Assembly (NCBI GenBank): GCA_013140805.1
Contig: JABFRW010000013.1
Span: 1-33,153 of the forward strand
Direction: 5' to 3'
From: Candidatus Eisenbacteria bacterium
GTDB taxonomy: Bacteria > Eisenbacteria > RBG-16-71-46
Length of the DNA: 33,153 bases
In this document: positions 6,730 through 25,312 of the stretch, one piece after another
Layout of the letters: each line of letters starts with the position of its first letter
How positions within the stretch are numbered: position 1 is the first letter of the stretch
Notes under the pieces: generated by a model
The model's database searches: none
Told to the model about the DNA's origin: nothing
What the model saw: the letters and a program-made list of their open reading frames with translations, nothing else
Translations under genes and position numbers: made by a program

Positions 6730-7542
6730 ATGGGCGAGCCGGCGCCGTCGGCGGCGACCCTCAAGCGTTCGATCGTGCGGGTGAGCGCGAGCGGGTGCTC
6801 AACTCTCGAAGACTCGGTCGCAGTCGAGCGGCCGCTGTCGATCCGGATCGAGGGCCGGGACCTGGCGGTCACGCTGCGCACGCCGGGGCACGATCTCGAA
6901 CTGGCGCTCGGATTCCTGGCGGGCGAGGGACTGATCACGAACCGCCATCAGGTGCGCTCGTCTCGAGAGACGCCCTCCGATTGCGCGGATGCACCCGACG
7001 TCATCGATCTGGCACTCGCGCCCGAGGTTCGATTCGACTGGACGCGCCTCGAACGCCACTTCTCCGCGACCGCCGCGTGCGGACTGTGCGGCCGTGCCCA
7101 CCTGGATGCGCTACGGGCAGGGCTCGCGCCGCTGGCGATGACCTCGCGCTTCGCGGTTGCGCCTCTGCTGGCGCTGCCTGCGCGGTTGCGCGAGCGGCAA
7201 CTGGCGTTCGCGCAGACCGGAGGCCTGCACGCGGCGGTGCTGTGCGACGAGGCGCTCGAGCCGCGCGTGGTGCGTGAAGACGTGGGGCGCCACAACGCGG
7301 TGGACAAGGTGATCGGGTGGCGACTCGATGCGGAGGATCGTAGCGAGCTGCTGTGGGTGAGCGGGCGCGCCGGTGCGGAGATCGTGCTCAAGGCCGCGCG
7401 CGCGCGGCTGGCGGTGCTGGCTGCGGTCGGGGCGCCGTCTTCGCTCGCGATCGAACTGGCCGAAGCCGCCGGGCTCACGCTGATCGGCTTCATGCGCGAC
7501 GCGCGCTTCAATGTCTACTCGGGCGTCGGGAGGATCGTGTGA
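6730..7542 (+). CDS. fdhD: FdhD, sulfurtransferase for formate dehydrogenase molybdenum cofactor
   Basis: FdhD transfers sulfur from a cysteine desulfurase to the Mo-bisPGD cofactor, which formate dehydrogenases need for activity. Seen: LALGFLAGEGLI near residue 60, the conserved CxxC pair C117-G-L-C120, the family signature VREDVGRHNAVDKVIG, WVSGRAGAEIVLKAA, and the C-terminal TLIGFMRDARFNVYSG. At 270 residues it is full length. ATG 6730 is chosen because the frame upstream only reads through thyX out of frame. It follows thyX by 8 bases and its TGA overlaps the GTG of the next gene by 4 bases (7539-7542). No formate dehydrogenase subunit or cofactor gene is in the window, so its client must be encoded elsewhere. 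Confidence 0.95.
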   Translation: MGEPAPSAATLKRSIVRVSASGCSTLEDSVAVERPLSIRIEGRDLAVTLRTPGHDLELALGFLAGEGLITNRHQVRSSRETPSDCADAPDVIDLALAPEVRFDWTRLERHFSATAACGLCGRAHLDALRAGLAPLAMTSRFAVAPLLALPARLRERQLAFAQTGGLHAAVLCDEALEPRVVREDVGRHNAVDKVIGWRLDAEDRSELLWVSGRAGAEIVLKAARARLAVLAAVGAPSSLAIELAEAAGLTLIGFMRDARFNVYSGVGRIV

Positions 7543-9221
7543 ACCCCGAACCTCACGAGCCCGACGTATTCCAGGTGCTGGTGCAGGTCGGCGCGCTGCT
7601 GCGCGACACCGGCGATCCCGACAAGATCGTGCGCGCATTCGTGCGCGCGGCGCACCTGCTGCTCGGCGCCGATGCGACCTGCGTGGTGAGCCGCACCGGC
7701 GAGGACTTCGGCACCCGGCTGCGGGTCTCTCAACCGCTCGATGCGAACTGGGACCTGCCGCAGCTCGACGGACTGCTCGGGGAGGACGACGTGCGCGCTC
7801 CGCTCGGACTCATGACCTCGCGGATCGAGCGGCGCGGCCGCGACTGGGGCCTGCTCGCGGTGCGGCGCGACAACGACACCTTCAGCACTCAACAGCGGCA
7901 CGACCTGATGCGGCTGGTGGCGGAGCTGAGCGCGCGGCTTCAGCGCGCCGACCGCGACCGGCTGTCCGAGGTGCGCGAGCGCATCGACACGAAGATCCTT
8001 CGCGACCTCGACCCCAAGGACCTCTACTACCAGGTGCTCGACGGTCTGCATCAGCTCACCCGCTACGACCACTCGGCATCGCTGTACGTGATGGACGCGA
8101 GCACTCGCCGGCTCGAACTGGTGGCCGAACAGATCGCGTGGCGCAAGAAGATGAAGAGCCCGCGCATCGGCGCGACTTCGAATCCGTCGCCGGATCTGGA
8201 GCGTCTGCTCGGGGAGGGCATGATTCATGGCGTCGATCGGCTCGACGGCGCGTGGCGCGAATGGACCAGCGACGGCGCGGCGGCGCTCGCCACCCTGCTC
8301 GATCCGATCCCGCACGGCCCCGAGGCCGCCGATGCTCCGACCATGGGTGCCATGCTGATCGCAGTGCTCGGTTCGCGTGCCGACGGGGTGGGCGTGCTGC
8401 AACTCGGCGCCCGGCGGCCCGGCTGGTTCGGTGCTCACGAGCTCGAGATCGTGAGGCGGTTCGTGCCCGCGATGTCGGTCGCCCTGCAACGCGCCCGCGC
8501 CACCGAGAGCATTCGGCGCAAGGTGGTGGATGTCGAACGGCGCGCGGTGTTCGCGCACCTGGCGCGCGGCGTGGCGCACGACGTCAACAACGCGCTCGGC
8601 GCGGTGGTGCCGCTGGTGCAGCAGATTCACGCGGATCTCGATGACGGCCGGCTCGACCCGGTGACGCTGCGCACCGATCTCGAACAGATCGAGCGCTCGC
8701 TCGAGGTCTGTCAGCGGATCTTCACCGGCATGCTTCGCTCGGCGCGCGGGGCCTCGACCCACACCGGGAGCTGCGACGTTCGGCGCGCGATTCGAAATGC
8801 CTGCGATCTGCTCGACGGGCCGTTGAGGCGCGCGGGAGTGGTGCTGGTGCTCGAGGTCGAGGAGACGATCCCCGACGTGCGCGGTGCGCTCGGCGAGATG
8901 GAGCAGCTGGTCCTGAACCTCGCCACCAACGCGCTCGAGGCGATGCCGCGCGGCGGTCGCCTGACGATCGCGACGCGTCGCGAGTCCGACGGCGTGCGGC
9001 TCGACGTGGTCGACACCGGTCGCGGGATTCCGGCGGAGCTGCTCGCCGAGGTCGATCAGCCGTTCGTGACCACGAAGGAGAACGGCACCGGGCTCGGACT
9101 TCCGACCTGCCGTTCGATCGTGTCGGGCGTCGGGGGGGAGCTCTCGATCGAGAGCGAAGTGGGCAAGGGCACGCGCGTGATCGTTCGGCTGGCACCCGCC
9201 AGCGCCGCGGTCGAGGCCTAG
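7539..9221 (+). CDS. GAF-domain sensor histidine kinase
   Basis: A 560-residue soluble kinase with no membrane segment. Two GAF-like sensor regions lie at about 10-145 and 160-325, linked by the helix ADRDRLSEVRERIDTKI. The dimerisation/phospho-acceptor helix VFAHLARGVAHDVNNALG has H347. The ATPase domain carries the N-box QLVLNLATNALEAM, G1 DTGRGIP and G2 ENGTGLGLP, closing with SEVGKGTRVIVRL. GTG 7539 overlaps the fdhD stop (GTGA) and is preceded by GGGAGG at the right distance. The receiver-SpoIIE gene starts two bases after its stop, so it is the obvious partner. GAF domains usually bind small molecules or sense redox or light; no ligand residue is recognisable here. Confidence 0.93.
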   Translation: MNPEPHEPDVFQVLVQVGALLRDTGDPDKIVRAFVRAAHLLLGADATCVVSRTGEDFGTRLRVSQPLDANWDLPQLDGLLGEDDVRAPLGLMTSRIERRGRDWGLLAVRRDNDTFSTQQRHDLMRLVAELSARLQRADRDRLSEVRERIDTKILRDLDPKDLYYQVLDGLHQLTRYDHSASLYVMDASTRRLELVAEQIAWRKKMKSPRIGATSNPSPDLERLLGEGMIHGVDRLDGAWREWTSDGAAALATLLDPIPHGPEAADAPTMGAMLIAVLGSRADGVGVLQLGARRPGWFGAHELEIVRRFVPAMSVALQRARATESIRRKVVDVERRAVFAHLARGVAHDVNNALGAVVPLVQQIHADLDDGRLDPVTLRTDLEQIERSLEVCQRIFTGMLRSARGASTHTGSCDVRRAIRNACDLLDGPLRRAGVVLVLEVEETIPDVRGALGEMEQLVLNLATNALEAMPRGGRLTIATRRESDGVRLDVVDTGRGIPAELLAEVDQPFVTTKENGTGLGLPTCRSIVSGVGGELSIESEVGKGTRVIVRLAPASAAVEA

Positions 9222-9223
9222 GC

Positions 9224-10357
9224 GTGGCGCGCCCCCGCATTCTGGTCGTTGATGACGACGCCGCGCACCGCCGCGCCGTCGAGCGCGTGCTCGAGGCGTC
9301 GAACGACCTCGAGGCGGTGGCGGGTGCCGCGGGTGCTCTGGCCGCGTGCGAGCGCGAGCGCTTCGATCTGGCGATTCTCGACATTCGCATGCCGGGCATG
9401 GACGGTTTCACGTTGATGGGAGAGCTCAAGACCGCCGACCCCGATCTCGATGTGATCCTGATGACGGGCAGCGCCTCCGACATCGACGCACGGCTCGCCC
9501 GCGCGGTGCGCGAACGCGCGTTCTACTTCATTCAGAAACCGTTTCACCGCGACGTGCTGCTCGCGCTGGTGGCACGGTGCCTCGAGATCCGGCGCCTCAA
9601 CCGAGAGCGCGCGGCGCACGCCTCGCGGCTCGCCGCCGAGCTCGAAGCGGCGCGCCGCTTTCAGGCCAGCATGCTGCCGGCGGCCACACTCGAGCGCGAT
9701 CGCTATGAACTCGCCGCGCTGTACGAGCCGTCACTCGAGCTGGGCGGTGACTTCTTCGACTACGCCGAACTGGGCGGCAGCGTGCTCGCACTGCTGGTCA
9801 GCGACGTCGCGGGTAAGGGAGCCGCGGCGGCGATGCTGACCGGCATGGTGAAGCAGGCGTTCCACGCCGCGGCCCCCGATCGCTATGCGCCGGCCACCGC
9901 CATGCAACGCGTCTTCGAGGCGGTGAAGCTGTTCCCCGACGATCGCTTCCTCACCGCGTTCTGCGCCCGCATCGATGCGCAGGCCGGGCTGATCGAGTAC
10001 ATCTGCACCGCCGGCCACCCGCCACCGCTGCTCAAGCGTCGCAGCGGGGAGCTGGAGCCGCTCGTGGTTTCGAGCGATGTGCTGCATCCCGCGTTCGACA
10101 TGATCCACTTCGAGCAGAAGATCCTCGAGGTGCAGGCCGGCGACGTTCTGATGGCGTTCACCGACGGACTCATGGAAGCACGACGCTCGGAGACCGAAGA
10201 GTGGTACGACTTCGAGGGGATCGAGCGCTCGTTCGCGAAGCTCCCGATCGAGCGCGCGCCACAAGTCGTGACGCACCTGCGCGAGGCGCTGCGTGAGTTC
10301 CAGGCCGGCCGCCCGCCCGAGGACGACCTGACGATCGTCGCGGTGGGGCTCAAGTAG
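9224..10357 (+). CDS. Response regulator with SpoIIE/RsbU-type PP2C phosphatase output
   Basis: A 377-residue protein. The receiver (about 4-120) has the acidic pocket D10-D12, phospho-acceptor D53 in LDIRMPGMDG and K105 in QKPF. A short coiled linker (120-145) leads to a SpoIIE phosphatase domain with GGDFFDY, SDVAGKGAAAAM, FTDGLMEA and PEDDLTIVAV, which hold the metal-binding aspartates. Such proteins dephosphorylate anti-anti-sigma (STAS) factors and so release sigma factors. GTG 9224 lies two bases after the kinase stop. Phosphorylation by the upstream GAF kinase probably controls the phosphatase. No STAS or anti-sigma kinase gene is nearby. Confidence 0.94.
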   Translation: MARPRILVVDDDAAHRRAVERVLEASNDLEAVAGAAGALAACERERFDLAILDIRMPGMDGFTLMGELKTADPDLDVILMTGSASDIDARLARAVRERAFYFIQKPFHRDVLLALVARCLEIRRLNRERAAHASRLAAELEAARRFQASMLPAATLERDRYELAALYEPSLELGGDFFDYAELGGSVLALLVSDVAGKGAAAAMLTGMVKQAFHAAAPDRYAPATAMQRVFEAVKLFPDDRFLTAFCARIDAQAGLIEYICTAGHPPPLLKRRSGELEPLVVSSDVLHPAFDMIHFEQKILEVQAGDVLMAFTDGLMEARRSETEEWYDFEGIERSFAKLPIERAPQVVTHLREALREFQAGRPPEDDLTIVAVGLK

Positions 10358-13158: not shown

Positions 13159-14466
13159 CTAGTGACCGCCGCTCTTGCGTGGCCGCGCGTTCCACAGCGT
13201 GAGCATCAGGATGCCGCCGATCGCCGAGAAGCCCATCATGCTCGGTCCCCACACGCTCCAGCCGTAGTGGTCGAGCAGCCAGCCCATCCCGACACCCATC
13301 ACCGAGCCACCCACGTACTGCATGCCGTCGAACAATCCGGCGGCGGTGGCGGCGGCGCGCTTGCCGCCGAAGTCCATCGAGGCGGTGCCGGAGAGCATCG
13401 AGTGCACCATCGAGATCGCCAGTGAGTTGAGCATGAAGGCGATCACCACCGCGTTGACGCCGGGTGCTTTCCACACCACGAACAGGCACACCACCTGGAT
13501 CGCGTAGCCGATGAACGCGACCGGCGCGCGGCGATGGCCGAACACCTTGTCGGAGGCGTAGCCCGCGATGAACGCGCCCGCGATGCCGGCGCCGACGATC
13601 GCCAGCGCGTTGCGCTGGAAAATCGGATTCGAAAGCTCGAGGTGCTGCACTTCCTGCATGTAGCGCGGGAACCACTCCTCGAAGCCCTTGCGCACCAGTC
13701 CGGTGCAGAACTCCGCGATCGCGATCGTGATCGCGATCGGATTGGTGAACACCTTGCGCGCGACATAGCTGAATGTAATCGCCTCGGTGTCGCCGCTGCT
13801 CGCATCCTCGGGATCGAACTCCCCGAGCCCCGCGTCTTTGGGCGAATCCTGCACCACGCGCCAGGTGACGAACCACATGACCGCGACCACCACCGACGGA
13901 ATGAAGAACTTCCACTGCCAGGGCAGCAGCGCGATCATCGGCAAGCCGAGCAACAGGAACACCAGGAAGCGGCCGCTCTGGATCATCGAGCCGAAGATCG
14001 CCGAGAACACGCCGCGCTCGCTGACGTGGAACCAGCCCGAGTTCACCTTGATGAGAGCCAGCGCGCTGTAACTCTGGAAGTACATGTTGAGCGCCCACAC
14101 CGCCGAGAAGTAGGCGAGCATCACGGCGGGGGTGCCGACCACGCCGAGATAGGCGCCGAAGCCGAACACCAGATTGAAGAAGAACGCACCGCCGGCGCCG
14201 ATCAGCATCGCCTTGCGCCCACCCAGCCGGTCCGCGATCGGCCCGTTGAAGATCGCGGAGAGGCCGTAGATCAGCGTGCTGATCGTGATGATCGTGCCGA
14301 CCTGCGTCTTCGAGAATCCATAGGCGTCCGACAGCGCCTTGTTGGCGAGCGGAAAGTTGTAGCGCGCCATGTACATCGCGGCGTAAGTGAAGCCGAGCGC
14401 GAGCCAGTTCTGGGTGCGACGCTGCGAGAACTGGGGCGAGTGTTTCAGGGGCGCGGTCGCAGCCAT
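13159..14466 (-). CDS. OPA-family MFS transporter (GlpT/UhpT-like organophosphate antiporter)
   Basis: A 435-residue integral membrane protein with about 12 hydrophobic helices in two halves, split by a charged loop near residues 205-230 (DSPKDAGLGEFDPEDAS). The first helix region, MYMARYNFPLANKALSDAYGFSKTQVG, carries the RYNF motif of the organophosphate:phosphate antiporter family (GlpT, UhpT, PgtP). GPIADRLGGRKAM is the MFS loop 2-3 motif, and TASMDFGGKRAAATAAG late in the protein is also typical. These carriers exchange sugar or glycerol phosphates for phosphate at the inner membrane; the actual substrate cannot be read here. ATG 14466 has GAGGA about 8 bases upstream. The next gene on this strand ends 108 bases away, past a hairpin, so it probably has its own promoter. 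Confidence 0.92.
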   Translation of the reverse strand: MAATAPLKHSPQFSQRRTQNWLALGFTYAAMYMARYNFPLANKALSDAYGFSKTQVGTIITISTLIYGLSAIFNGPIADRLGGRKAMLIGAGGAFFFNLVFGFGAYLGVVGTPAVMLAYFSAVWALNMYFQSYSALALIKVNSGWFHVSERGVFSAIFGSMIQSGRFLVFLLLGLPMIALLPWQWKFFIPSVVVAVMWFVTWRVVQDSPKDAGLGEFDPEDASSGDTEAITFSYVARKVFTNPIAITIAIAEFCTGLVRKGFEEWFPRYMQEVQHLELSNPIFQRNALAIVGAGIAGAFIAGYASDKVFGHRRAPVAFIGYAIQVVCLFVVWKAPGVNAVVIAFMLNSLAISMVHSMLSGTASMDFGGKRAAATAAGLFDGMQYVGGSVMGVGMGWLLDHYGWSVWGPSMMGFSAIGGILMLTLWNARPRKSGGH

Positions 14467-14574: not shown

Positions 14575-15393
14575 CTAGCGGGCGCCGAGGCGCTCGCGCA
14601 GCGGACGGGCGCGGGTGCGACTCACCGGAACCTCGGTGCGGGCGGTATCCCGGAGCGTCAGGCGCCAGGTACCCGCGAACGCCGGGCGCAGCTCGAGCGC
14701 GTGATCCAGGTTGACGATCGCGCCGCGGTGAACGCGCAGGAAGCGGCGCGCATCGAGGCGGGCTTCGAGCTGGTCGAGCGTGAAGTTGATCCAGAATCGA
14801 TCGCCCTCGATCGCCACGAACACCAGCTTGTCCTCGGCGCCGAACCACAGAATCTCCTCGGCTCGCAGGATGCGCTGGCGCACGCCGACCCGGACGGTCA
14901 GTCGCTCGAGCGGCGCCAGCTCGGAGGTCGCGGCGGTCGTCGTTGGCGTCGCCGAGGTGCGCGTGTGCGAACGCTCCGCGGCCAGCGCGTCGAGCAGCTC
15001 GCGCATGCGCGCGTCGAGCGACTCGGGACCCGCCCGTGCGGCGCGCACGCGATCGAGCGCTTCGGCGAGCCGCTCGGCACGAAACGGCTTGAGCAGATAG
15101 TCGATCGCGCGCTCTTCGAATGCCTGCACCGCGTAGTGGTCGAACGCGGTTGCGAAGATCACCGCCGGCCGCTCGGCCAGTGTGCGCAGAAGCTCGAAGC
15201 CGTCCTCGCCCGGCATCTGGATGTCGAGCAGCAGCAGGTCCGGGGTGAGTGCGGCGATGCGTTCGCGCGCTTCCGCGGCCGAGCCGGCCTCGCCCACGAT
15301 TTCGAGGTCGGGCAGCGCCTCGAGCAGCCGCCGCGCGCGGGCGCGCGCAGGGGCTTCGTCGTCGACGATCAGGACGCGCAGGATTCGAGGCAT
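14575..15393 (-). CDS. LytTR-family response regulator
   Basis: A 272-residue regulator. The receiver domain (about 6-120) has DDE at 11-13, phospho-acceptor D57 in LLLLDIQMPG and a lysine in LLKPF. A Ser/Thr/Ala-rich linker (SHTRTSATPTTTAATS) leads to a LytTR DNA-binding domain (about 165-270), recognisable by ILRAEEILWFGAEDKLVFV and FLRVHRGAIVNLDHA. LytTR regulators bind direct repeats ahead of target genes. ATG 15393 is chosen so the protein begins MPRILRVLIVDDE; GTG 15405 would add four residues. It sits 44 bases downstream of the TonB receptor gene. The LytS-type kinase heading the same run of genes is its natural partner. Confidence 0.94.
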   Translation of the reverse strand: MPRILRVLIVDDEAPARARARRLLEALPDLEIVGEAGSAAEARERIAALTPDLLLLDIQMPGEDGFELLRTLAERPAVIFATAFDHYAVQAFEERAIDYLLKPFRAERLAEALDRVRAARAGPESLDARMRELLDALAAERSHTRTSATPTTTAATSELAPLERLTVRVGVRQRILRAEEILWFGAEDKLVFVAIEGDRFWINFTLDQLEARLDARRFLRVHRGAIVNLDHALELRPAFAGTWRLTLRDTARTEVPVSRTRARPLRERLGAR

Positions 15394-15437
15394 GGAAGCG
15401 AGCACCCCAGAGTCCGAAACACCGCCATGGCGTGCGG

Positions 15438-17657
15438 CTACCAGGTCAGCGAGAAGCCGGCCACCAGCAGCCGGCGGCTGAAGTACGAATCGCGCTCATA
15501 GCGTCGCGAATAGTCGCTGTTGTACACGTACTCGAGGGTGTTGTCGATTGCGAGCACGTTCAACCCCTCGACGTACACCACGCACGGCCCGCTCTGCGGC
15601 AGCGCCGCCCAGGCCGGCATCGAGAACAGTCGCGAGTAGCGAACGTCGAGCCGGTGATAGTCGGGCATGTTCGCGGATTGGCGCGCCCCCTCGACCGGGT
15701 GCCACACCTCGCGGCCCGGGTCGTAGAACCGTCCGACTACCGGCGTGTAGGGCCGCCCGCTCGAGGCGCTGTATCGGAACCCGAGCGTGGTCGCGGAGTT
15801 GAGGTGATACTGGCCGACCAGTGTGATCGAGTGGGCGACTCCGTAGGGCGACGGCACTCGTTCACCTGCATCGCCCTCGCGGCGGCGGCTGTCGAGATAG
15901 CCGTACGAGACCCAGCCGGACAGCCAGCGATAGGTGCCCTGGAGGAACACGTCGACGCCGCGTGCAAACCCGTGGCCGTCGTTCGCGAAGAAGCGGGTGG
16001 AATCCGTCGTCAGGAGCCCGCGATAGTCCTTGCGATAACCCTCGACGCGCAGATTGCCGAACTCTGACTTCCACTCGTAGCCGGCGATCACGTGGTCGGC
16101 GCGCAGTGGCTCGAGGTCGGGATTGCCGTACACCGGATCGAGCGTGCGTGGATCGGCGAGCTGGTGGTAGCGGCCCGCCGCCACGCGCGCGGTCTGGTGG
16201 TCGTCGATGCGCCACGCGACAGCACCGCGCGGATCCGCGGTCCATACGCCGGGCTCCGAGGCATAGTCGAAACGACCGCCGAGCGTGGCGTAGACCGGGC
16301 CCCATACCCGCACCTTGTCTTCGAGGTAGAGGCCGGGATTCATGAGCGTGACGTCGGTGTCGTGCTGCCGCGAAGGAGCGCCGCTGACGATGTCGGTGCT
16401 GTCGGCCGCGAACGAACCGCGGATCTCGGTCGCGGGCCGGCGCAGATTGGCGCCGAACGAGACTTCGTGTCGGGGACTCGCCGACCACACGGCGTCGAGG
16501 TTCGCCTGCCCGTTGCGTTCGGTGGTCGAGGCGCCGAGTGTTCCAAAGCTCCAGCGCGAGCGGTAGTACTGCCCCGACATCTGGCCACGCAGCGCGAGCT
16601 GCTTGCCGATCAGCGCGCTGCCGTTGAGCGCCACGGTGTGATTGCGCGCGTGCTCGACGTAGAGCTCGCGCGCGTTGAGCGCCTCGGCATGGAGTGCCAC
16701 GTCGTCTCCGGAATCGAGGTACGAGAGTGACAGCCGGCTCGCAGCGCTCGGGCGCCACAGCAATCGGGAGAACAGATTCGCGCTCGAGGGCGCGGCCTCG
16801 TACTCGCTGACGCTGCCGTAGAGCCGGAACAGCAGTTCCGGGAAGGAGCGACTCACGCTGCCGATCAACGACAGCTTGCCGGGCACCAGGGCCCACGAGG
16901 ACGAAGCGCTCATGCCCGCGAGATTGGCGCCCAGCGAGACCGTGCGCAGATCGAGCGGGTCCTGGGTCTCCACGTCGAGAACGCCCGACAGCGCCCCGCC
17001 GTATTTCGAGCTGAATCCACCGCTCGAGAAGAACGCGCTCTTGATCATGTAGCTGTCGATGGTCGAGAACAGCCCGCCCGAGGCCCCCTCGTAGTGGTAG
17101 GGGTGACCCAGCTCGCCGGAGTCCACGCGGATCAGCGTCTCGCTGGGGTCGCCGCCGCGCACGTAGACCGCGGCGCCTTCGTTGGGCGCGTTGATGCCCG
17201 GCAACGCGCGCAAGGCCTGGAACACGTCCGCGGCACCACCCGGTGTGGTCAACACGTCGATGCGGCGCAGCACCGCGCCTTCGCTCTTGCCGGCTTTGCC
17301 GAACGACGAGGCGGCGACGGTGACCTCGGCGACCGGCACCGGCTCCTCGGCGAGAACCACTCTCAGATCGGCAGTCCCGACCGACGCCGCGACATTCAGG
17401 CGCACGCGCTGGTAACCGATCTGCGAGACCTCGAGCACTTGCGGGCCATCAGGCAGCTCGAGCGTGAAGCGTCCCTCGGTGTCGGTGACCGCGCCGCGCT
17501 TGAGTGCCGGAACCTGGACGTTCGCGAATTCGATCGCGCGTCCGGCGCGGTCGACCACGCGGCCGCGCAGGGTCGCCGCACTCGCGACACCGGGAGCGAT
17601 GAACAGGCACGCGACCAGCAATAGCCGCCGCGACAAGTCCAAGGCGTGCGGGCTCAC
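15438..17657 (-). CDS. TonB-dependent outer-membrane receptor with carboxypeptidase-regulatory-like domain
   Basis: A 739-residue outer-membrane protein. A signal peptide (RLLLVACLFIAPGVASAA) is followed by a CarboxypepD_reg-like beta-sandwich at about 29-110 (RGRVVDRAGRAIEFANVQV...GRFTLELPDG). The plug domain lies at about 115-245 (VFQALRALPGINAPNEGAAVYVRGGDPSETLIRVD, GGFSSKYGGALSGVLDV). The rest is a beta-barrel with repeated aromatic strand ends, finishing AGFSLTW. Such receptors import a ligand using TonB energy. GTG 17657 overlaps the stop of the upstream TPR gene by 4 bases. The gene order kinase-TPR-receptor-LytTR suggests that expression is tied to the ligand or transport state. The ligand is not identifiable. 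Confidence 0.93.
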   Translation of the reverse strand: MSPHALDLSRRLLLVACLFIAPGVASAATLRGRVVDRAGRAIEFANVQVPALKRGAVTDTEGRFTLELPDGPQVLEVSQIGYQRVRLNVAASVGTADLRVVLAEEPVPVAEVTVAASSFGKAGKSEGAVLRRIDVLTTPGGAADVFQALRALPGINAPNEGAAVYVRGGDPSETLIRVDSGELGHPYHYEGASGGLFSTIDSYMIKSAFFSSGGFSSKYGGALSGVLDVETQDPLDLRTVSLGANLAGMSASSSWALVPGKLSLIGSVSRSFPELLFRLYGSVSEYEAAPSSANLFSRLLWRPSAASRLSLSYLDSGDDVALHAEALNARELYVEHARNHTVALNGSALIGKQLALRGQMSGQYYRSRWSFGTLGASTTERNGQANLDAVWSASPRHEVSFGANLRRPATEIRGSFAADSTDIVSGAPSRQHDTDVTLMNPGLYLEDKVRVWGPVYATLGGRFDYASEPGVWTADPRGAVAWRIDDHQTARVAAGRYHQLADPRTLDPVYGNPDLEPLRADHVIAGYEWKSEFGNLRVEGYRKDYRGLLTTDSTRFFANDGHGFARGVDVFLQGTYRWLSGWVSYGYLDSRRREGDAGERVPSPYGVAHSITLVGQYHLNSATTLGFRYSASSGRPYTPVVGRFYDPGREVWHPVEGARQSANMPDYHRLDVRYSRLFSMPAWAALPQSGPCVVYVEGLNVLAIDNTLEYVYNSDYSRRYERDSYFSRRLLVAGFSLTW

Positions 17658-18484
17658 GACGTCCGACCTCCGCGCTTGCCGCCCGCCGAGCCCTTCGCCG
17701 TGCTCGACTTGCGCGTTTCGTCGAGCAGCTTGCGCGCCCAGCCCATCTCGGGGTTGACGACCAGCGCGCGCTCGTAGAAGGCGATCGCCCGCGCCGGATC
17801 GTCGAGCTTGCGCGCCGCGTTGCCGGCCCAGACGTGTGCGTCGTCACGTCCCCAGTCGGCGGTGCGCGCGTCGGTCGCCGACGCGGCTTCGAACGCCGCG
17901 ATCGCCTGCTCCAGGATCGGCAGTGCCTTCTTGGCGCCGCCGCCGATGAACGCCGGCCGATGGAGCGTCATCATGCCGCGCAGCAGCAGCACGCGTGGAT
18001 TGGCGGGCGCAAGCGTCTCGGCGCGCTCCTCGAGCCGCGCCATCTCGGGTCCCAGCGTCATGCCGAGCGCCATGCCGCCGAACTGGATCTTGAAGCCGAG
18101 CAATGCGGACTTGAGCGCATGGTTCTCGGCGAAGCCGGGTTCTTTCTCGATCGCACGATCGACCTCGACGAGCGCGGACTCGAGCAAGTCCTCCGAGACC
18201 CGGCGTTGCTTGTCGTCTCGCATGAAGCCGATCGCGCGCCATGCCGAGAGCGCGCTCCAGTACGAGAGCCGCGCGTCTTCGGGGGTCGCGGCCGCCAGCG
18301 ATTGAAAGTCCTGCCTCACCGCGAGGACCTGATCGGTACGTGCCGCATTGACCGCGGCCTGAAGGCGGCCGCGTAGCGTCGCCAGCGAGTCCGCGCTCGC
18401 GGCCCTCGCGGGAGTCACAGGGCTCAGGAGGGCGAGCAGCGCAAGCGCACCCGCAGTGACGATTGAAACGTGACGAGTCGACAT
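17654..18484 (-). CDS. Secreted TPR-repeat protein paired with a TonB receptor
   Basis: A 276-residue protein with a clear signal peptide (IVTAGALALLALLSPVTPARA). Helical tetratricopeptide-like pairs include ALVEVDRAIEKEPGFAENHALKS, LPILEQAIAAFEAAS and the canonical PARAIAFYERALVVNPEMGWA near residues 228-248. The last 20 residues are basic and Ser/Gly/Lys-rich. It is probably periplasmic and a protein-interaction scaffold. It starts 3 bases after the kinase stop and overlaps the receptor start by 4 bases, so the three are translationally coupled. A direct role with the receptor (assembly, ligand delivery or signalling) is inferred from coupling only. Confidence 0.88.
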   Translation of the reverse strand: MSTRHVSIVTAGALALLALLSPVTPARAASADSLATLRGRLQAAVNAARTDQVLAVRQDFQSLAAATPEDARLSYWSALSAWRAIGFMRDDKQRRVSEDLLESALVEVDRAIEKEPGFAENHALKSALLGFKIQFGGMALGMTLGPEMARLEERAETLAPANPRVLLLRGMMTLHRPAFIGGGAKKALPILEQAIAAFEAASATDARTADWGRDDAHVWAGNAARKLDDPARAIAFYERALVVNPEMGWARKLLDETRKSSTAKGSAGGKRGGRTS

Positions 18485-18487
18485 GGG

Positions 18488-19609
18488 TCAGCCTTTCGGT
18501 TGCGGGTGAACGGCAGGTGCCGATGCGATCGGCAGCGTCAGGTGGATGCGCGTGCCGCGATCGGGTGCGGATTCGATTTCGATCGCGTGCGGCGGCCCCG
18601 CGGTCAGCATGCGTTCGCGCACCGAGTGGAGCCCGAAGCCTTCGCCGAGCGGGGCCGCTCCCGGGCGTATGCCGGGGCCGTCGTCGGCGATGGTGATGCG
18701 CATGCATTCGCCGTCAAGTCGCGCGGTGATCGTCACCGTGCCGCCGTCGGCGAGCTGGGCGACGCCGTGGCGGACCGCGTTCTCGACCAGCGGCTGTAAC
18801 AGCAGTGACGGCAGCGTGGTCTCGAGCAGCGCCGGATCCACTTGCTCGACGACGCGCAGGCGTTCGCCGAAGCGGGCGCGTTCGATCTCGAGGTAGTTGC
18901 GCACGAACGACAGCTCGTCGGCGAGCGACGAGGCCTCGCGCTCGGAGGCGCGCAGCGTGTAGCGAAACAGGTCGGCGAGCCGCGTGGTGGTGTCCTCGGC
19001 CGCCTCCGGATCGCTGCGAACCAGCGCGGCAATGGTATTGAGCGTGTTGAACAGGAAGTGCGGGTGGACCTGAGCCCGCAGTGCGCGCAACTCGGCCGAC
19101 GCGAGATCGGCGCGCATGCGCTGGACCGCCTCGGCACGCGCGATCGCCTGTGCGTAGAAGATGCGTGCGTAGATGATCCCCGTGAACAGCGTGGTGAAGG
19201 TGAGCGAGTACATCAGACTGATGAGCAGGTCGCGCGGCGTCTCCAGAAAGCCGGGCAGCACGCTGGCGTTGACGATCACGGCGGCCAGCAGTGCGGATGC
19301 GACGGCGGTGCCCCCGTAGAGACCGGCTTGAATCCACAGCGGCGTGCGTCCGCCCTGGTAGCGCGCGGGGCTCAGGTGCGGCATGACCCAGGTTTCGAGC
19401 GCCCACAGCCCGAGGCCGATCGAGTACGCGAACACCAGGGCGATCTGATACGAGCGGAGGTAGGACCGTCCGTTGTTCCCGAACAGGATCCCGAAGAATA
19501 TCGCGAACGGCAGGGCCCAGAGTGGTTGTTGCCACACGATGCGCACCAGCGCCCGGCCGCGGTGGCGCGTGGGCGGGCGGGTTCCGAGAGTCGACGTGCG
19601 GAGTTTCAT
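18488..19609 (-). CDS. LytS/YehU-type membrane histidine kinase
   Basis: A 373-residue kinase. Residues about 24-155 form four hydrophobic helices with short loops (ALPFAIFFGILFG, IALVFAYSIGLGLWAL, AVASALLAAVIVNASV, LISLMYSLTFTTLFTGIIYA). The His_kinase domain has QVHPHFLFNTLNTIAAL with H184 the likely phospho-acceptor. The ATPase domain includes LLQPLVENAVRHG, ADDGPGI and GFGLHSVRERM. The membrane module closely resembles that of the SpoIIE phosphatase just upstream. It heads a tight cluster with the TPR, TonB and LytTR genes; LytS kinases normally pair with LytTR regulators. There are 88 bases between it and the phosphatase stop, including a CCGACC/GGTCGG hairpin, so it may have its own promoter. 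Confidence 0.94.
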   Translation of the reverse strand: MKLRTSTLGTRPPTRHRGRALVRIVWQQPLWALPFAIFFGILFGNNGRSYLRSYQIALVFAYSIGLGLWALETWVMPHLSPARYQGGRTPLWIQAGLYGGTAVASALLAAVIVNASVLPGFLETPRDLLISLMYSLTFTTLFTGIIYARIFYAQAIARAEAVQRMRADLASAELRALRAQVHPHFLFNTLNTIAALVRSDPEAAEDTTTRLADLFRYTLRASEREASSLADELSFVRNYLEIERARFGERLRVVEQVDPALLETTLPSLLLQPLVENAVRHGVAQLADGGTVTITARLDGECMRITIADDGPGIRPGAAPLGEGFGLHSVRERMLTAGPPHAIEIESAPDRGTRIHLTLPIASAPAVHPQPKG

Positions 19610-19697
19610 GGAGGGATCATCGGTGGGGCGTGGTCGCAGCAGAAGGCCCGACCGGATGAAAGGTCGGCGCCGGCCGATGAACGGTTGCGCCGGGCGA

Positions 19698-20903
19698 CTA
19701 ACCGCGCGGATCGGGGTCCAGCACCCGCAGCGTCAGCAGCGTCACGTCATCGCCGGCTTCGCGGTCGGCGAGGTGGCGATCGAGGTCCTTCAACACCCGC
19801 TCGAGTAGTTCGCGAGCACTCAGCGCGGACGGCAACGCACCCAGGAAGGCCGTCAGCCGCTCCTCGCCATACTGTTCACCGTCCGGCGCCTCGGCCTCGG
19901 TGAGGCCGTCCGAGTAGATGAGCAGCCGATCGCCGGGGCCCAGCGCGAGCGTCTCCTGCGCGTAACGCACCTCGGGGAGGATGCCGACCACGGTGCCGCC
20001 GCAGTCGAGCGTTCGGCACTCACCGTTCGAGCGCCACAGCAGCGGCGGATTGTGGCCGGCGTTGCAGTACTCGAGCGTGAGTTTCTGCTCGTCGAGGCGC
20101 GCGAGGAAGAAGGTCGCGAACTGATGCACGCTGGTGCTTCGATGCGCGACGCCGTTCACGATCTCGAGGATCTCCGACACCGGCGCCGCACCCGCCGCCT
20201 GGGTGCGCACCGAGGCCTGAAGCATGGAGGTCAGAAGTGCCGCGGGTACGCCCTTGCCCGCGACATCGGCGACCGCGAGCAGCAATCCCGTCGCGCCCGA
20301 CGGCACCACGTCGTAGAAATCGCCGCTCACCTCGCGCGAGCTGCGGTTGTAGGCGTGAATCTCGAAGCGCGGGCTGTCGGGGAACTGGCTGATCAGGAAC
20401 GAGCGCTGAATCCGGCGCGCCATCTCGAGCTCCTGCTCGGAACGCGCCTTGTCGAGTGACTGGTGATAGAACACCCAGGCATAGACGGCGCCGATCACCA
20501 GCACGCTGAACAGGATCGAGTACATCGCGATCACCAGCAGGCCACGCATGCTGCCCATCAGCCCCGGCATCACCGTCGAGTTGACGATCATGGCGCCGAT
20601 CATCGCGGCCCCGATCGAGGTGCCGAGCCGCACGGCGATGCCGGCCCACAGCGGAAGTCCTCTGGCACCGCCGAAACGCCGCTGGAGCTGCGGAACCAGC
20701 GCGCGTTCGGAGGCCATCACGGCGACCGCGATCACCGCCGAGAACACCAGCGAGGCCTGGTAGGAGCGCACGTAGCCGCTCCAGCTGCTGCCGTAGACGG
20801 TGCCGAAGAACAGCGCGAATGGAATCGCGGACACCGGCACCAGCCACAGCTGGCGCAAAAGTGTGCTGGAAAGCGGCTCGGGGCCGCTCGACTTAGGGCT
20901 CAT
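19698..20903 (-). CDS. Membrane-anchored SpoIIE/RsbU-type PP2C phosphatase
   Basis: A 401-residue protein. Residues about 12-150 form a four-helix membrane module (SAIPFALFFGTVYG, SYQASLVFSAVIAVAV, AAMIGAMIVNSTVMPG, IAMYSILFSVLVIGAVYAWVFY). A short signalling helix (LDKARSEQELEMARRIQRSF) follows, then a SpoIIE phosphatase domain with SGDFYDVV, ADVAGKGVPAALL, NAGHNPPLLW, YSDGLTEAE and AGDDVTLLTLR. All expected metal-binding aspartates are present. It probably dephosphorylates a STAS-type target in response to a membrane signal; no such target is nearby. ATG 20903 lies 7 bases after the pdxH stop with no clear Shine-Dalgarno site. Its membrane part is homologous to the next gene's kinase sensor. 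Confidence 0.93.
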   Translation of the reverse strand: MSPKSSGPEPLSSTLLRQLWLVPVSAIPFALFFGTVYGSSWSGYVRSYQASLVFSAVIAVAVMASERALVPQLQRRFGGARGLPLWAGIAVRLGTSIGAAMIGAMIVNSTVMPGLMGSMRGLLVIAMYSILFSVLVIGAVYAWVFYHQSLDKARSEQELEMARRIQRSFLISQFPDSPRFEIHAYNRSSREVSGDFYDVVPSGATGLLLAVADVAGKGVPAALLTSMLQASVRTQAAGAAPVSEILEIVNGVAHRSTSVHQFATFFLARLDEQKLTLEYCNAGHNPPLLWRSNGECRTLDCGGTVVGILPEVRYAQETLALGPGDRLLIYSDGLTEAEAPDGEQYGEERLTAFLGALPSALSARELLERVLKDLDRHLADREAGDDVTLLTLRVLDPDPRG

Positions 20904-20910
20904 CGCGGGC

Positions 20911-21561
20911 TCACGGCGCCAGCCGCTCGCGCATCCAGCCGCCCGCTTCGCGCCGATAGCGCACGCGGTCGTGCAGCCGATGGTTCCCGGCCTGCCAGAA
21001 CTCGAATGTGTCGGGCACCAGGCGATAGCCGCCCCAGTGCGCCGGGCATTCGCGCTCGGGGTGCGCCGGGTCGGCCACGAGTTCGCGCAATCGCTGCTCG
21101 AGCGAGGCGCGATCGGCGATCACGCGACTCTGGGGCGAAGCGATCGCGGACAACCGGCTGCCGACCGGCCGCGATAGGAAGTAGGCACGCGAGGTCGCGG
21201 CATCGGTGCGCTCGACCGCACCTTCGATCCGAACCTGACGATGCATGGGTGGCCAGTGAAACAGCAGCGCCGCGCATGGATTGGTCGCCAGCTCGTCCGC
21301 CTTGCGGCTTTCGTAGTTGCTGAAGAACTGAAAGCCGCTCGCATCGAACGCCTTCATGAGCACCATGCGGACCGAGGGGCGACCGCTCGCATCCGCGGTC
21401 GCGAGCGCCATCGCATTCGGATCCTCGGGCGTGACGCGGCCTGCATCCTCGAACCACGAACGAAACGCAGCGAGCGGATCGGCGGGCAGAGTCGCGGGAT
21501 CGAGCGCGCGAGCGCGCGCATGGCGTTCGGCGTCAGGCGGCGCCTTGGGGAGCGGGTCCAT
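20911..21561 (-). CDS. pdxH: Pyridoxamine/pyridoxine 5'-phosphate oxidase
   Basis: PdxH uses FMN and oxygen to convert PNP or PMP to pyridoxal 5'-phosphate. The 216-residue protein matches along its length: [25 protein letters not shown] (FMN phosphate contacts), [52 protein letters not shown], and the C-terminal signature [16 protein letters not shown]...[11 protein letters not shown] 21561 gives the usual length. It lies 51 bases downstream of the porin gene and 7 bases upstream of the SpoIIE phosphatase, all on one strand, so read-through is plausible. The link to its neighbours is probably not functional. Confidence 0.95.
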
Positions 21562-21612: not shown

Positions 21613-22806
21613 TCAGAATCGAATCGAGAGCTGCGTTCCGATCAGGTCGTTGTCGCGATCACCGTTCACGGTGCTCCAGGTGTTGCGCTGATAGACGCCC
21701 TTGAGCATCAGCTGAACCGCCGGGCGCCAGCCGAGCCCGACCTCGAGGCGTTCGCGGTCGCAGTCCCACGGGAGCGCGGGGCCGGAGCTGCCCTGGATCT
21801 CGTCGAAGCGCAGCACGTCGTAGCGAACCGCCGCGTGGAGCCCGGCACGCACCGTGATTCGGGCCTCGCCGTAGCCGCCGGTCGCATCGAGGTTCCCGAT
21901 CGTCGGGGTCTCGAAACGATTCTGGAATCCCTCGGCCCTCAGTTCGAGCGGGCCCGACATGAACTCGAGATCCGCCATGGTCAGTACCTGATTGAAGTCG
22001 TCGACGTCGGTGCCGGGAGCGAGCGACGGCTCGATCGCATTGGCGAGATACGAACCGTAGGCGCCCGACACTCCGACTCGCAGTTCCGGAATCGGGGCGA
22101 GCCCGAGACGCCCGACCACGCTCTTGCCGTCGTTCGTGTCGGTGTCGAGCGACTGCGTGGAAGGAGTGCCCTGCTGCACTCCGATCGAATACTCGAACGG
22201 GCGGCGGCTGCCCTGGACGACGACCCCGTAGTCCCAGCAGCGGTCGTAGACAAACGGCATGCCCTTGGAGCCTACGCCGGTACCGTAGTTGGGGCCCACC
22301 TGCCCGGTGCCACGCGCCGCGAGCAGCGCATCACGCGTGGCCGGCACCGCATCCGAGCGCAGCGACGAGTGGTAGAAGTACATCAACGGCGTGCCCATCA
22401 GCGGGTTCTCGTCCGAGTAGGTGCGCGGCGCGAAGGTGCCGATCGTCCACGGCACGACTCCGGCCATCAGGTGGAGATCCAGCTCGGGCTTGGGTGTCCA
22501 GCGCGCGTAGGCGCCATACACGCGCGGATTGTTCACCTCGGCGAACATCAGCTGCAGGAACACCTCGACGCCGCTCCCCGCATCGCCGTCAAAGAACAGG
22601 CGGACCCGGTAAGGGTCGAATGACGAGTCGCTCTGATTGAGCCAGTTGTCGCGGATCGCCTCGCCACCTGCGGCATATGCGAAATCGGCGAGACCGTGAA
22701 CATGGATCTCGGCGGAGTGAGCGGTGGCCGCCGACGTCAGGCTGATCGCACACGCCACGACGGCGGTCGCCGCGAGCACCCGGTGGTTCGGAGCCCGGAG
22801 CGTCAT
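21613..22806 (-). CDS. Putative outer-membrane porin-like beta-barrel protein
   Basis: A 397-residue protein. ATG 22806 overlaps the kinase stop (ATGA), and the frame upstream of it is non-coding read-through. The signal peptide (VLAATAVVACAISLTSAATAHSAEIH) is followed by alternating hydrophobic/polar strands with aromatic girdle residues: DPYRVRLFFDGDAGSGVEVFLQLMF, VYGAYARWTPKPELDLHLMAGVV, LQLMLKGVYQRNTW and a final GTQLSIRF ending in Phe, as outer-membrane barrels do. I do not recognise the exact family; the layout resembles phosphate-selective-porin-like or uncharacterised porins. It is the last gene of the cupredoxin-kinase-porin cluster, so it may be the channel for whatever the kinase senses. 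Confidence 0.8.
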   Translation of the reverse strand: MTLRAPNHRVLAATAVVACAISLTSAATAHSAEIHVHGLADFAYAAGGEAIRDNWLNQSDSSFDPYRVRLFFDGDAGSGVEVFLQLMFAEVNNPRVYGAYARWTPKPELDLHLMAGVVPWTIGTFAPRTYSDENPLMGTPLMYFYHSSLRSDAVPATRDALLAARGTGQVGPNYGTGVGSKGMPFVYDRCWDYGVVVQGSRRPFEYSIGVQQGTPSTQSLDTDTNDGKSVVGRLGLAPIPELRVGVSGAYGSYLANAIEPSLAPGTDVDDFNQVLTMADLEFMSGPLELRAEGFQNRFETPTIGNLDATGGYGEARITVRAGLHAAVRYDVLRFDEIQGSSGPALPWDCDRERLEVGLGWRPAVQLMLKGVYQRNTWSTVNGDRDNDLIGTQLSIRF

Positions 22807-24626
22807 GCCGCCTCCTTCAATTGCATCAGGGCGACCGGGATGCGAAGCGTCACGACGGTTCCGTGGCCGAGTCGACTCGCCAGCGTCAGCGTCCCGCGAT
22901 GGTGTTCGACGATGCCGCGTGCGATCGCGAGGCCCAGTCCGAGTCCGGCGGAATTGAACTCGAGCGCGCCCGACGAGTGATGGTGCGAGGCGTCGTGGAC
23001 CACCACCGATCGGTCGGCGAGCTGCGCGATGCGCTCCTCGCTCATGCCATTGCCGGTGTCGCGGACCTCGAGCTCGAGCCACTCGGCTTCGCGCCGCGCC
23101 GTGAGCGTCACGCTGCCGCCATCGGGGGTGAAGCGCACGCCGTTCGAAATCAACTGTGAGATCGCGTGCGCGAACCGCGCACCATCGACCTGGATGCGTC
23201 CCGGATCGCCGAGCGGTTGGATCTCGATGCTGACGCGGCGGTCCGGCGCCGTCGCTCGCACCTCGGAGGCGGCGCGCTCGAGCAGCGCGATCGCGTCCTC
23301 GTCGGCGTATTCGAGTTCCAGGCGCGCGCTCTCGATCTGCGCCATGCGAGTCGCATTTTCGGCCGTGCGGGTGAGCGTCTTGACCGCGCGGCCGATCGCG
23401 TCGACGGCGGTCTGCTGTTGCGAGGTGACAGGGCCGAGCTGGCCGGTGGCGAGCAGCTCCTGATAGGCGTTGACCACGCTGATCGGGGTGCGAAGCTCGT
23501 GCGAGGCCACGCTGATGAACTCGGTCTTGAGTCGCGCCACGGATTCGAGGCTGCGCACGTAGCTGCGCAGGCGCTGCCGCATCTCGACGAAGCGCGCCGT
23601 CAGGTAGCCCACCTCGTCGCTGTCGCTCCCCGCGAGCGGAAAGTCGTAGTTACCGCGCTCCATCTCCTCGGCGCCACGCACCAGCCGCAGCAGTGGAGCC
23701 GTGATGCGCTCCGCGATGAAGTAGCCGGCGATCAGCGACAGCAGGATCGCCAGCAGTCCGAGTTCGACCAGGTGCGTCTGCATTTCGCGCAGCCAGGTCG
23801 TCTCGGTATCGAGCGCACGTTGCAGTACGTAGAGCTGGCCACTGCCGGGTACCGCGTCGGGCAGTTCGCGCGCCAGGGTCAGGAACACATGCCGGCCGGC
23901 GCGTACCTCGGTCACGGTGCCGCTGCGCGACTGGGCCCCTCCGCCGACCGACTCGGCCTGCAGCGAGGACAGAACGAGCTGGCGTTCCTCGGCATTCTCG
24001 AGCGTGCTCCCGGTCGACAGCGAGCCCGAGAAGAAGCTCACCTCACTGCGGGTCAGCGAGCGCAACTCCTCGGCCAGCTCGCGCCCGATACGGTCGCCGA
24101 GCAGCAGCGACCCCACGACCCGACCACCGACGTACACCGGAGTGACGGCGACCTGGTAGTGCGCCTGCGGATCGATCAGCACTCCGGTCACCGCACGCCC
24201 CTCAAGCGCGCTGCGAACGTGTTCGGAGCGTCCGCTGCGGCTCGAGAAGTCGGGGCCGACGGAAGCGAGCAGCTCGCCCTCGGCGTTGAAGACTTCGAAC
24301 AGGTCGGGGCCGGTGATGGTTCCGAACTCGCTCGCCACGCCGCTGACGGTCGCGCGCAGCTGAGGGTCCGCGGCCGTGCCGGGCAGCGTGAGCGTCGAGA
24401 AGAAGCGCGGATCGGCGACGATCACGCGCGCCGTGACCGCGAGCCGGTCGCTGCGCGCCGAGAGCAGGGTCTCGAACACCGCTGCCGCGCGACGCAGATC
24501 GTCACGCAGGCTCTCGTGCACTCGCCGGGCGATGTTGCGATCCACCACGATCAGCCCGCCGACCGCCAGCGCCACCAGCGGCGCGGTGGTCGCGAGCAGG
24601 ATCTTCCAGCGGACGCGCAGCTTCAT
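22803..24626 (-). CDS. Membrane sensor histidine kinase with periplasmic Cache-like domain and HAMP
   Basis: A 607-residue kinase. TM1 (ILLATTAPLVALAVGGLIVV) and TM2 (LVELGLLAILLSLIAGYFIA, about 280-300) flank a periplasmic domain of about 245 residues. That domain has Cache-like features: LFEVFNAEGELLASVG, YQVAVTPVYVGGRVVGSLLLG and an IGRELAEEL helix. HAMP follows (TAPLLRLVRGAEEMERGNYDF), then HisKA with H376 in SVASHELRTPIS, N-box HAISQLISNGVRF, G1 DTGNGMS and G2 AGLGLGLAIARGIV. The stretch VVVHDASHHHSSGALEF in the ATP lid is His-rich. It starts 2 bases after the cupredoxin stop and overlaps the porin start. No response regulator is adjacent. Confidence 0.94.
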   Translation of the reverse strand: MKLRVRWKILLATTAPLVALAVGGLIVVDRNIARRVHESLRDDLRRAAAVFETLLSARSDRLAVTARVIVADPRFFSTLTLPGTAADPQLRATVSGVASEFGTITGPDLFEVFNAEGELLASVGPDFSSRSGRSEHVRSALEGRAVTGVLIDPQAHYQVAVTPVYVGGRVVGSLLLGDRIGRELAEELRSLTRSEVSFFSGSLSTGSTLENAEERQLVLSSLQAESVGGGAQSRSGTVTEVRAGRHVFLTLARELPDAVPGSGQLYVLQRALDTETTWLREMQTHLVELGLLAILLSLIAGYFIAERITAPLLRLVRGAEEMERGNYDFPLAGSDSDEVGYLTARFVEMRQRLRSYVRSLESVARLKTEFISVASHELRTPISVVNAYQELLATGQLGPVTSQQQTAVDAIGRAVKTLTRTAENATRMAQIESARLELEYADEDAIALLERAASEVRATAPDRRVSIEIQPLGDPGRIQVDGARFAHAISQLISNGVRFTPDGGSVTLTARREAEWLELEVRDTGNGMSEERIAQLADRSVVVHDASHHHSSGALEFNSAGLGLGLAIARGIVEHHRGTLTLASRLGHGTVVTLRIPVALMQLKEAA

Positions 24627-24628
24627 GA

Positions 24629-25312
24629 TCAGAACCTCAACTCGACCGTGGCCCCACCCGCGGGAATCGTCACTTCGCGGGTCACGGTCGGGAGATCGGG
24701 ATGCCACGCGACCACCCGATAGCTTCCGGGTGGCACGTCGGGCAGCGCGAATGAGCCATCGGCAGCCGGCCGCGTGAACCAGGGATGCGCGACCACCACG
24801 ATCCACGCCGCCATCGAGCTGTGGATGTCGCAATACACGTTCACGACTCCGGCCTTGCGAAACGTCACTTGCCGCGAGCGGCCCTTGGGGTACTTGCCGA
24901 GATCGAAGTGGCAGGCCGGCGAGACGCTGAAGACGTTGTGGAAGATCGGGTCCATGTTCGGAAAGTCGACCGCGGCGCCGACCGGGATCGCGAGCACCCG
25001 CGGCACGAATGCCTGATCGCGCTGCGCCAGGGTGCGACCTCGATCGGAGTTCTCGGGAAGCGTGCCGGCGGGTGTCTCCTCGAAGTAGATGACGGCGTCG
25101 GTCACCGCTCCGACCCGCGTTTCGTGGCGGCCCGGCAGCGAGTTCGCACGACCCGCGTAGGCATTCGCCGTCGACCGGGCGGAACCACCGTCGTTCGGCG
25201 TGTGCACGAAGCCCGAAAGCACCGCGGCATGCGCGGGCACGCTCGACCATGCGATCGCCAGCACGGCGATCGCAGCGCTCCACCCTCCATGGTCGAAACG
25301 GCGTCGGGTCAT
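24629..25312 (-). CDS. Periplasmic cupredoxin-like protein with carboxypeptidase-regulatory-like tail
   Basis: A 227-residue exported protein with signal peptide AAIAVLAIAWSSVPAHAA. Residues about 95-180 form a cupredoxin domain: FPNMDPIFHNVFS and VVNVYCDIHSSM provide the type-1 copper set H125, C161, H164, M167. The C-terminal 50 residues (PAADGSFALPDVPPGSYRVVAWHPD) match a carboxypeptidase-regulatory-like beta-sandwich. Related proteins are often labelled methylamine-utilization or plastocyanin-like, but no amine-oxidation gene is present. The likely role is electron transfer or copper binding in the periplasm. It heads a three-gene unit with the kinase and porin, 125 bases downstream of the acyl-CoA dehydrogenase gene. 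Confidence 0.9.
   Translation of the reverse strand: MTRRRFDHGGWSAAIAVLAIAWSSVPAHAAVLSGFVHTPNDGGSARSTANAYAGRANSLPGRHETRVGAVTDAVIYFEETPAGTLPENSDRGRTLAQRDQAFVPRVLAIPVGAAVDFPNMDPIFHNVFSVSPACHFDLGKYPKGRSRQVTFRKAGVVNVYCDIHSSMAAWIVVVAHPWFTRPAADGSFALPDVPPGSYRVVAWHPDLPTVTREVTIPAGGATVELRF

Follow-up and report, generated by a model that had tools for sequence, protein, structure and literature searches.

The window, by which we mean the whole stretch of 33,153 nucleotides analysed here, contains two adjacent minus-strand genes that begin alike and end in different enzymes. The upstream gene (19698..20903) encodes a SpoIIE/RsbU-type PP2C phosphatase of 401 aa (PF07228 SpoIIE, E 4e-50) with a complete set of PP2C motifs, SGDFYD, ADVAGKG, SDGLTEA and DDVTLL (metal-binding SGD, AD, SDG and DD), and with the xxIQxxL linker start; no GAF, PAS or HAMP domain was found between its membrane module and the PP2C domain. 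The downstream gene (18488..19609) encodes a LytS-type (PF06580) sensor histidine kinase of 373 aa (His_kinase, E 2e-28; HATPase_c, 2.5e-13), which carries an HPHFLFN motif at position 182 with H184 as the conserved histidine. Both genes lie where the initial annotation had placed them, and Pfam and motif analysis agreed with its view that the two outputs differ (PF06580 plus HATPase_c versus PF07228). Each protein starts with a four-helix membrane module, delimited by homology, profile matches and AlphaFold2 helices, which spans residues 21-165 of the kinase (19115..19549, minus strand) and residues 15-159 of the phosphatase (20427..20861, minus strand).

The pair forms part of a run of minus-strand genes that opens with a pdxH-like pyridoxamine-phosphate oxidase (20911..21561), a conserved neighbour located 7 bp upstream of the phosphatase. 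Downstream, and likewise assigned with Pfam, follow a TPR protein whose N-terminus resembles a signal peptide (17654..18484), found in the same operon across phyla; a TonB-dependent receptor with CarboxypepD_reg (15438..17657), also in conserved linkage; a LytTR response regulator (14575..15405; Response_reg, E 1.4e-23; LytTR, 2.6e-21); and a GlpT/UhpT-like MFS transporter (13159..14466; MFS_1), the last conserved gene of the block. From pdxH to the LytTR regulator the successive intergenic gaps are 7 bp, 88 bp, 3 bp (kinase to TPR gene), an overlap (TPR to receptor gene) and 33 bp. The whole block recurs in four other genomes (G001, G003, G004 and G019) and parts of it elsewhere in the family of the window (f1). 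The regulator, which is presumed to be the partner of the kinase, adjoins the kinase operon in other genomes too. A TonB-TPR-LytS-LytTR operon is also present in f64, a family of another phylum, and in G125, G183 and G108, with a similar cluster in G373; in these last four genomes the kinases have unrelated four-helix N-termini. As the kinase part of the operon is present in other phyla, the phosphatase is therefore a latecomer to an older kinase operon.

The N-termini of the two proteins (kinase residues 21-166, phosphatase residues 15-160) align with 39% identity and 65% positives over 147 residues in BLASTP (114 bits, two-sequence E 1e-32). All the recurring motifs listed in the initial annotation appear in order in both proteins; its claim that the two N-termini are alike held as to homology, the motifs RSYQ, IVN and MYS being particular to this pair and not family-wide. 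The signature kept throughout the family is A32-x-P34-F35-A36-x-F38-F39, G44, F60, P77, a polar residue at 114, R126, F138, L141, G144 and A148. The objection raised there, that the similarity might not extend beyond hydrophobicity, was addressed by shuffling the kinase N-terminus 2000 times while preserving its hydrophobic/polar/charged pattern. The real pair reached a local alignment score of 287, compared with maxima of 88 for the pattern-keeping shuffles and 65 for full shuffles, and because 287 exceeds all pattern-keeping shuffles, the similarity represents homology and not hydrophobicity. Profiles built from kinase-type copies find phosphatase-type copies and vice versa (E < 1e-38), and a profile match to the kinase module reached E 4.9e-56 (with A2). 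A chance or generic resemblance between two unrelated four-helix N-termini, both of them hydrophobic, is hardly credible in the face of these sequence comparisons and of the lack of a match to the four-helix N-termini of other LytS kinases, syntenic ones included (0.7-6.6% probability), and is counted as already refuted.

Searches with Pfam and NCBIfam models found none that covers the module. The 5TMR-LYT domain (PF07694) is absent, kinase residues 1-170 have no Pfam match, and the other copies of the module gave nothing beyond single chance matches against Pfam. A structure search of the PDB returned no relative by fold (best E 0.54), and the sequence search returned none either, with aquaporin-like matches at E 0.09 or worse. 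We rejected the idea that the module is the generic four-helix N-terminus of LytS proteins: against five other kinases of the same genome the comparison gave 37% probability over TM3-4 and the linker only, and with the linker removed this fell to 6.6%, with the reversed control at 2.6%, so that similarity was not detectable. Kinase N-termini from the syntenic operons of G125, G183, G373 and G108 were likewise discarded as relatives (0.7%), and weak profile matches in G400 and G298 turned out to be unrelated membrane proteins.

Profile searches located the module in 23 of the 47 genomes of the phylum Candidatus Eisenbacteria: 16 of 20 in f1, 7 of 9 in f5 and none in the rest of the phylum. The genome of the window has exactly two copies. 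A nine-row alignment of the module, searched against genome contigs, retrieved 8 loci, all from Eisenbacteria. Outside the phylum, where several hundred genomes were sampled around each of three centres, f64 was the sole group with the module (seven genomes, all kinases). The f64 and Eisenbacteria modules match over their whole length (hhalign probability 97.8%, E 5e-12; reversed control, 0.0%) and are, on this profile comparison, truly homologous. The initial annotation had suggested searching for other outputs fused to the module and asking whether the gene pair co-occurs. All copies with a readable output carried either a PF06580 kinase or a SpoIIE phosphatase, the latter being the only type in f5; an apparent third output in G012 (L097 / L035), a copy of 261 aa, proved to be a SpoIIE phosphatase gene that the assembly interrupts with an ambiguous base and a stretch of Ns. 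Co-occurrence of the two types did not reach significance (one-sided p 0.22, or 0.17 for genomes at least 90% complete, many f1 genomes being incomplete). Among the 20 f1 genomes both types are found in 9, the kinase only in 5, the phosphatase only in 2 and neither in 4; overall, the phosphatase occurs without the kinase in 9 genomes and the kinase without the phosphatase in 5. The two genes are adjacent in 5 of the 9 genomes that have both (G000, G001, G003, G004 and G019) and apart in the other four (G006, G008, G015 and G017), the partner being missing at the pdxH site or the genes lying on different contigs.

A tree was built from 36 modules, 17 of them from phosphatases, with the kinases of Eisenbacteria and f64. 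All 17 phosphatase modules fall into one clade (98/96; 98% of bootstrap trees), with every kinase on the other side, and the same split was recovered in a tree without f64 (96/92). When the tree is rooted on the f64 kinases the phosphatase modules nest inside the kinases, which points to a single copying event, probably from kinase to phosphatase; the reverse direction is possible, as this root sits on the long f64 branch (2.3 changes per column). The module was thus copied onto the other output once, long ago. The duplication and domain swap put forward in the initial annotation is upheld insofar as one module came to sit on two outputs through a single exchange, and has to be revised in its timing: a recent duplication in the genome of the window was rejected, since the two modules of the window are not sisters and the phosphatase modules all group together in a single clade.

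AlphaFold2 models of the two modules (12 rows each, mean pLDDT 82) predict helices at 14-43, 47-79, 91-117 and 125-177 in the kinase and at 11-37, 41-77, 85-110 and 119-172 in the phosphatase, which correspond after a shift of 6; in both models the fourth helix continues into the linker. Seven Lys/Arg residues precede TM1 and loop 2 is Arg-rich, a charge distribution that suggests that both ends of the module lie inside. The outer loops are short (approximately 3-7 residues), and therefore a signal would have to be perceived inside the membrane or relayed by a partner protein. Module position 114, in TM3, is H, N, D or Q in every one of the 30 Eisenbacteria copies, kinases and phosphatases alike; in the window it corresponds to N114 of the kinase (codon 19268..19270, minus strand) and to its equivalent N108 of the phosphatase (codon 20580-20582, minus strand). 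Where TM4 begins, R126 is retained in 23 of these 30 copies, again in both types. The spacing between A148, at the end of TM4, and the catalytic domain is also constrained: the phospho-accepting His follows at exactly 36 residues in 19 of 19 kinases from two phyla, and the PP2C GD motif at exactly 52 residues in 10 of 10 f1 phosphatases, with 60 or 56 residues (+8 or +4) in those of f5. Such fixed linker lengths fit signal transmission along a helical linker, as has been proposed for PPM phosphatases and histidine kinases alike (PMC12143880), although it may instead be the conserved PF06580 and SpoIIE domains that hold the spacing constant.

We consider it likely that this is an uncatalogued module that resided ancestrally on the LytS-type kinase of a TonB-TPR-kinase-LytTR operon, was copied once in Eisenbacteria onto a neighbouring RsbU-type SpoIIE phosphatase, and signals through its linker. 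Under this proposal the module would dimerise in the membrane, with the fourth helix running unbroken as a helical linker into the output domain, and a change in the membrane bundle would alter the packing of the linker pair. In the kinase, the linker would switch autophosphorylation of H184, with subsequent phosphotransfer to the LytTR regulator (14575-15405). In the phosphatase, it would set the metal-binding switch of the PP2C domain, the putative substrate being a phosphorylated STAS protein encoded elsewhere. Candidate partners for the signal are the TonB receptor, the TPR protein or the transporter of the operon. The initial annotation had the phosphatase driving a partner-switching pathway, a role that is at most putative, as no STAS or RsbW-like gene was detected near the phosphatase, either in the neighbourhood in the window or in the related neighbourhoods examined. 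STAS and HATPase_c_2 genes do exist elsewhere in the genome of the window (C112, C89, C163 and C194), which encodes a total of 11 SpoIIE domains.

To ask whether kinase and phosphatase respond to a common signal, we compared module identities. These were 31.7% within genomes and 31.3% between genomes (permutation p 0.37), so that the pair showed no sign of concerted evolution or of matched divergence. A matched, bifurcating pair, in which both modules sense one signal and set LytTR transcription and partner switching together, appears possible but doubtful. Its two genes share one operon, are neighbours in over half of the genomes that have both and are both retained where they are apart, and the polar residue at 114 and R126 are conserved across the two types. 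Against this reading stand the lack of a within-genome excess of similarity, the genomes with one type only and the non-significant co-occurrence, together with the finding that the phosphatase modules are as distant from each other as from the kinases (identities of 32% among phosphatases, 31% between phosphatases and kinases and 40% among kinases). On these grounds, and with no partner-switching gene close by, the idea that one membrane signal drives both outputs, raised when the pair was first noticed, was not sustained. Co-transcription, adjacency and the polar TM3 residue are compatible with a common signal; the negative identity test is compatible with one as well while lending it nothing, and only the operon and the polar site hint at it. 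A more specific version, with a novel intramembrane signal read at the polar TM3 site by two co-transcribed paralogous sensors and passed simultaneously to LytTR transcription and PP2C partner switching, seems rather unlikely.

Two further alternatives concern what the module does. It could be a plain dimerising membrane anchor with no sensory role, the signal entering elsewhere, and the tiny loops and the conserved residues, which are mostly Gly, Pro, Ala and aromatic, would suit such a role; the fully conserved polar position in TM3, the Arg that both types conserve where TM4 begins and the fixed register of the linker make it unlikely. Hetero-oligomers, in which the membrane modules pair and kinase and phosphatase control each other with no common signal reported, would agree with two paralogous, membrane-embedded proteins co-expressed from one operon, and yet each type is also found without the other and no covariation is seen within genomes, which leaves this arrangement improbable.

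The sharing of input domains by these two classes of enzyme is itself known. 7TMR-DISM and MASE1 occur with histidine kinase and SpoIIE-type outputs. Cache domains occur on histidine kinases as well as on SpoIIE-type phosphatases (PMC4822843), PAS, receiver, GAF and RsbU N-terminal domains are common to kinases and PPM phosphatases (PMC12143880), and S-helix and 7TMR-DISM proteins with kinase and SpoIIE outputs have been described (PMC1592074); recently, PPM phosphatases and histidine kinases were proposed to share a mechanism based on a coiled-coil linker (PMC12143880). The suggestion that a pairing of this kind was undescribed does not stand beside the Cache, PAS, receiver and 7TMR-DISM precedents. 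In the literature library searched, no paper combined MASE1 with SpoIIE, or Eisenbacteria with SpoIIE. Like the known shared sensors, the module is one input on kinases and SpoIIE-type phosphatases with a helical linker; unlike them, it is an all-membrane four-helix unit with no Pfam model, is found in Eisenbacteria and one foreign family, has two outputs only, and its paralogues can adjoin in one operon. The novelty lies in the module and in an exchange that clearly happened once and whose two products are neighbours.

Comparison with individual systems gives a similar picture. UhpABC combines a kinase bearing a multi-helix membrane domain with a GlpT-family transporter, and the locus resembles it in that the genes of a membrane kinase and a regulator are accompanied by a GlpT-family MFS gene; this likeness comes from gene layout and not from comparison of the membrane domains, and the regulator is of the LytTR type here and of the LuxR type there. 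With the LytS/LytTR systems BtsS/BtsR and YpdA/YpdB (PMC5936718) the locus shares a LytTR regulator, a nearby MFS transporter and a PF06580 kinase whose N-terminus is a membrane domain; however, BtsS has a six-helix LYT domain and a GAF domain (PMC5936718), whereas the Eisenbacteria kinase has four helices and no GAF, and other four-helix LytS N-termini of its own genome show no profile similarity to the module. The phosphatase is like RsbU/SpoIIE partner-switching phosphatases in its PP2C motifs and xxIQxxL linker start, and differs in that the membrane module replaces the RsbU/PAS/GAF input and no STAS/anti-sigma gene is nearby. The locus bears on the question of how one sensory domain can drive histidine kinases as well as serine phosphatases. 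It offers a single, datable exchange, with both enzymes in one operon and linker lengths fixed on each side; as the same module is joined to both enzymes through fixed linkers, the linker idea becomes testable at a defined joint (around residue 163 of the kinase and 157 of the phosphatase). The locus also adds an uncatalogued membrane module and draws attention to a TonB receptor-TPR-LytS-LytTR operon of several phyla.

We know of no description of that operon. A TonB receptor-TPR-four-helix LytS arrangement, mostly with LytTR, was seen in several phyla (L098, L124-L126, L148-L150 and L153), the kinases bearing different membrane N-termini. In f64, an ABC-2 type permease-like gene and an ABC ATPase gene, named from sequence, lie between the kinase and the TonB/TPR genes (L098 3831-5711; L126 8721-10597). 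The GlpT-type transporter is 69-78% identical across genomes, far above the adjoining sensors (L079, L081, L083 and L096), and is still at the pdxH site in G006, where the kinase is gone. The window also encodes a second SpoIIE phosphatase, fused to a receiver domain (9224-10357, plus strand) and adjoined by a histidine kinase (7353-9221, plus strand), an RssB-like arrangement with ordinary input. Finally, a HAMP/dCache_3 histidine kinase (22803-25312, minus strand) is preceded by a carboxypeptidase-regulatory-like protein, and both of these genes are also found next to the pair in G001, G008 and G017.
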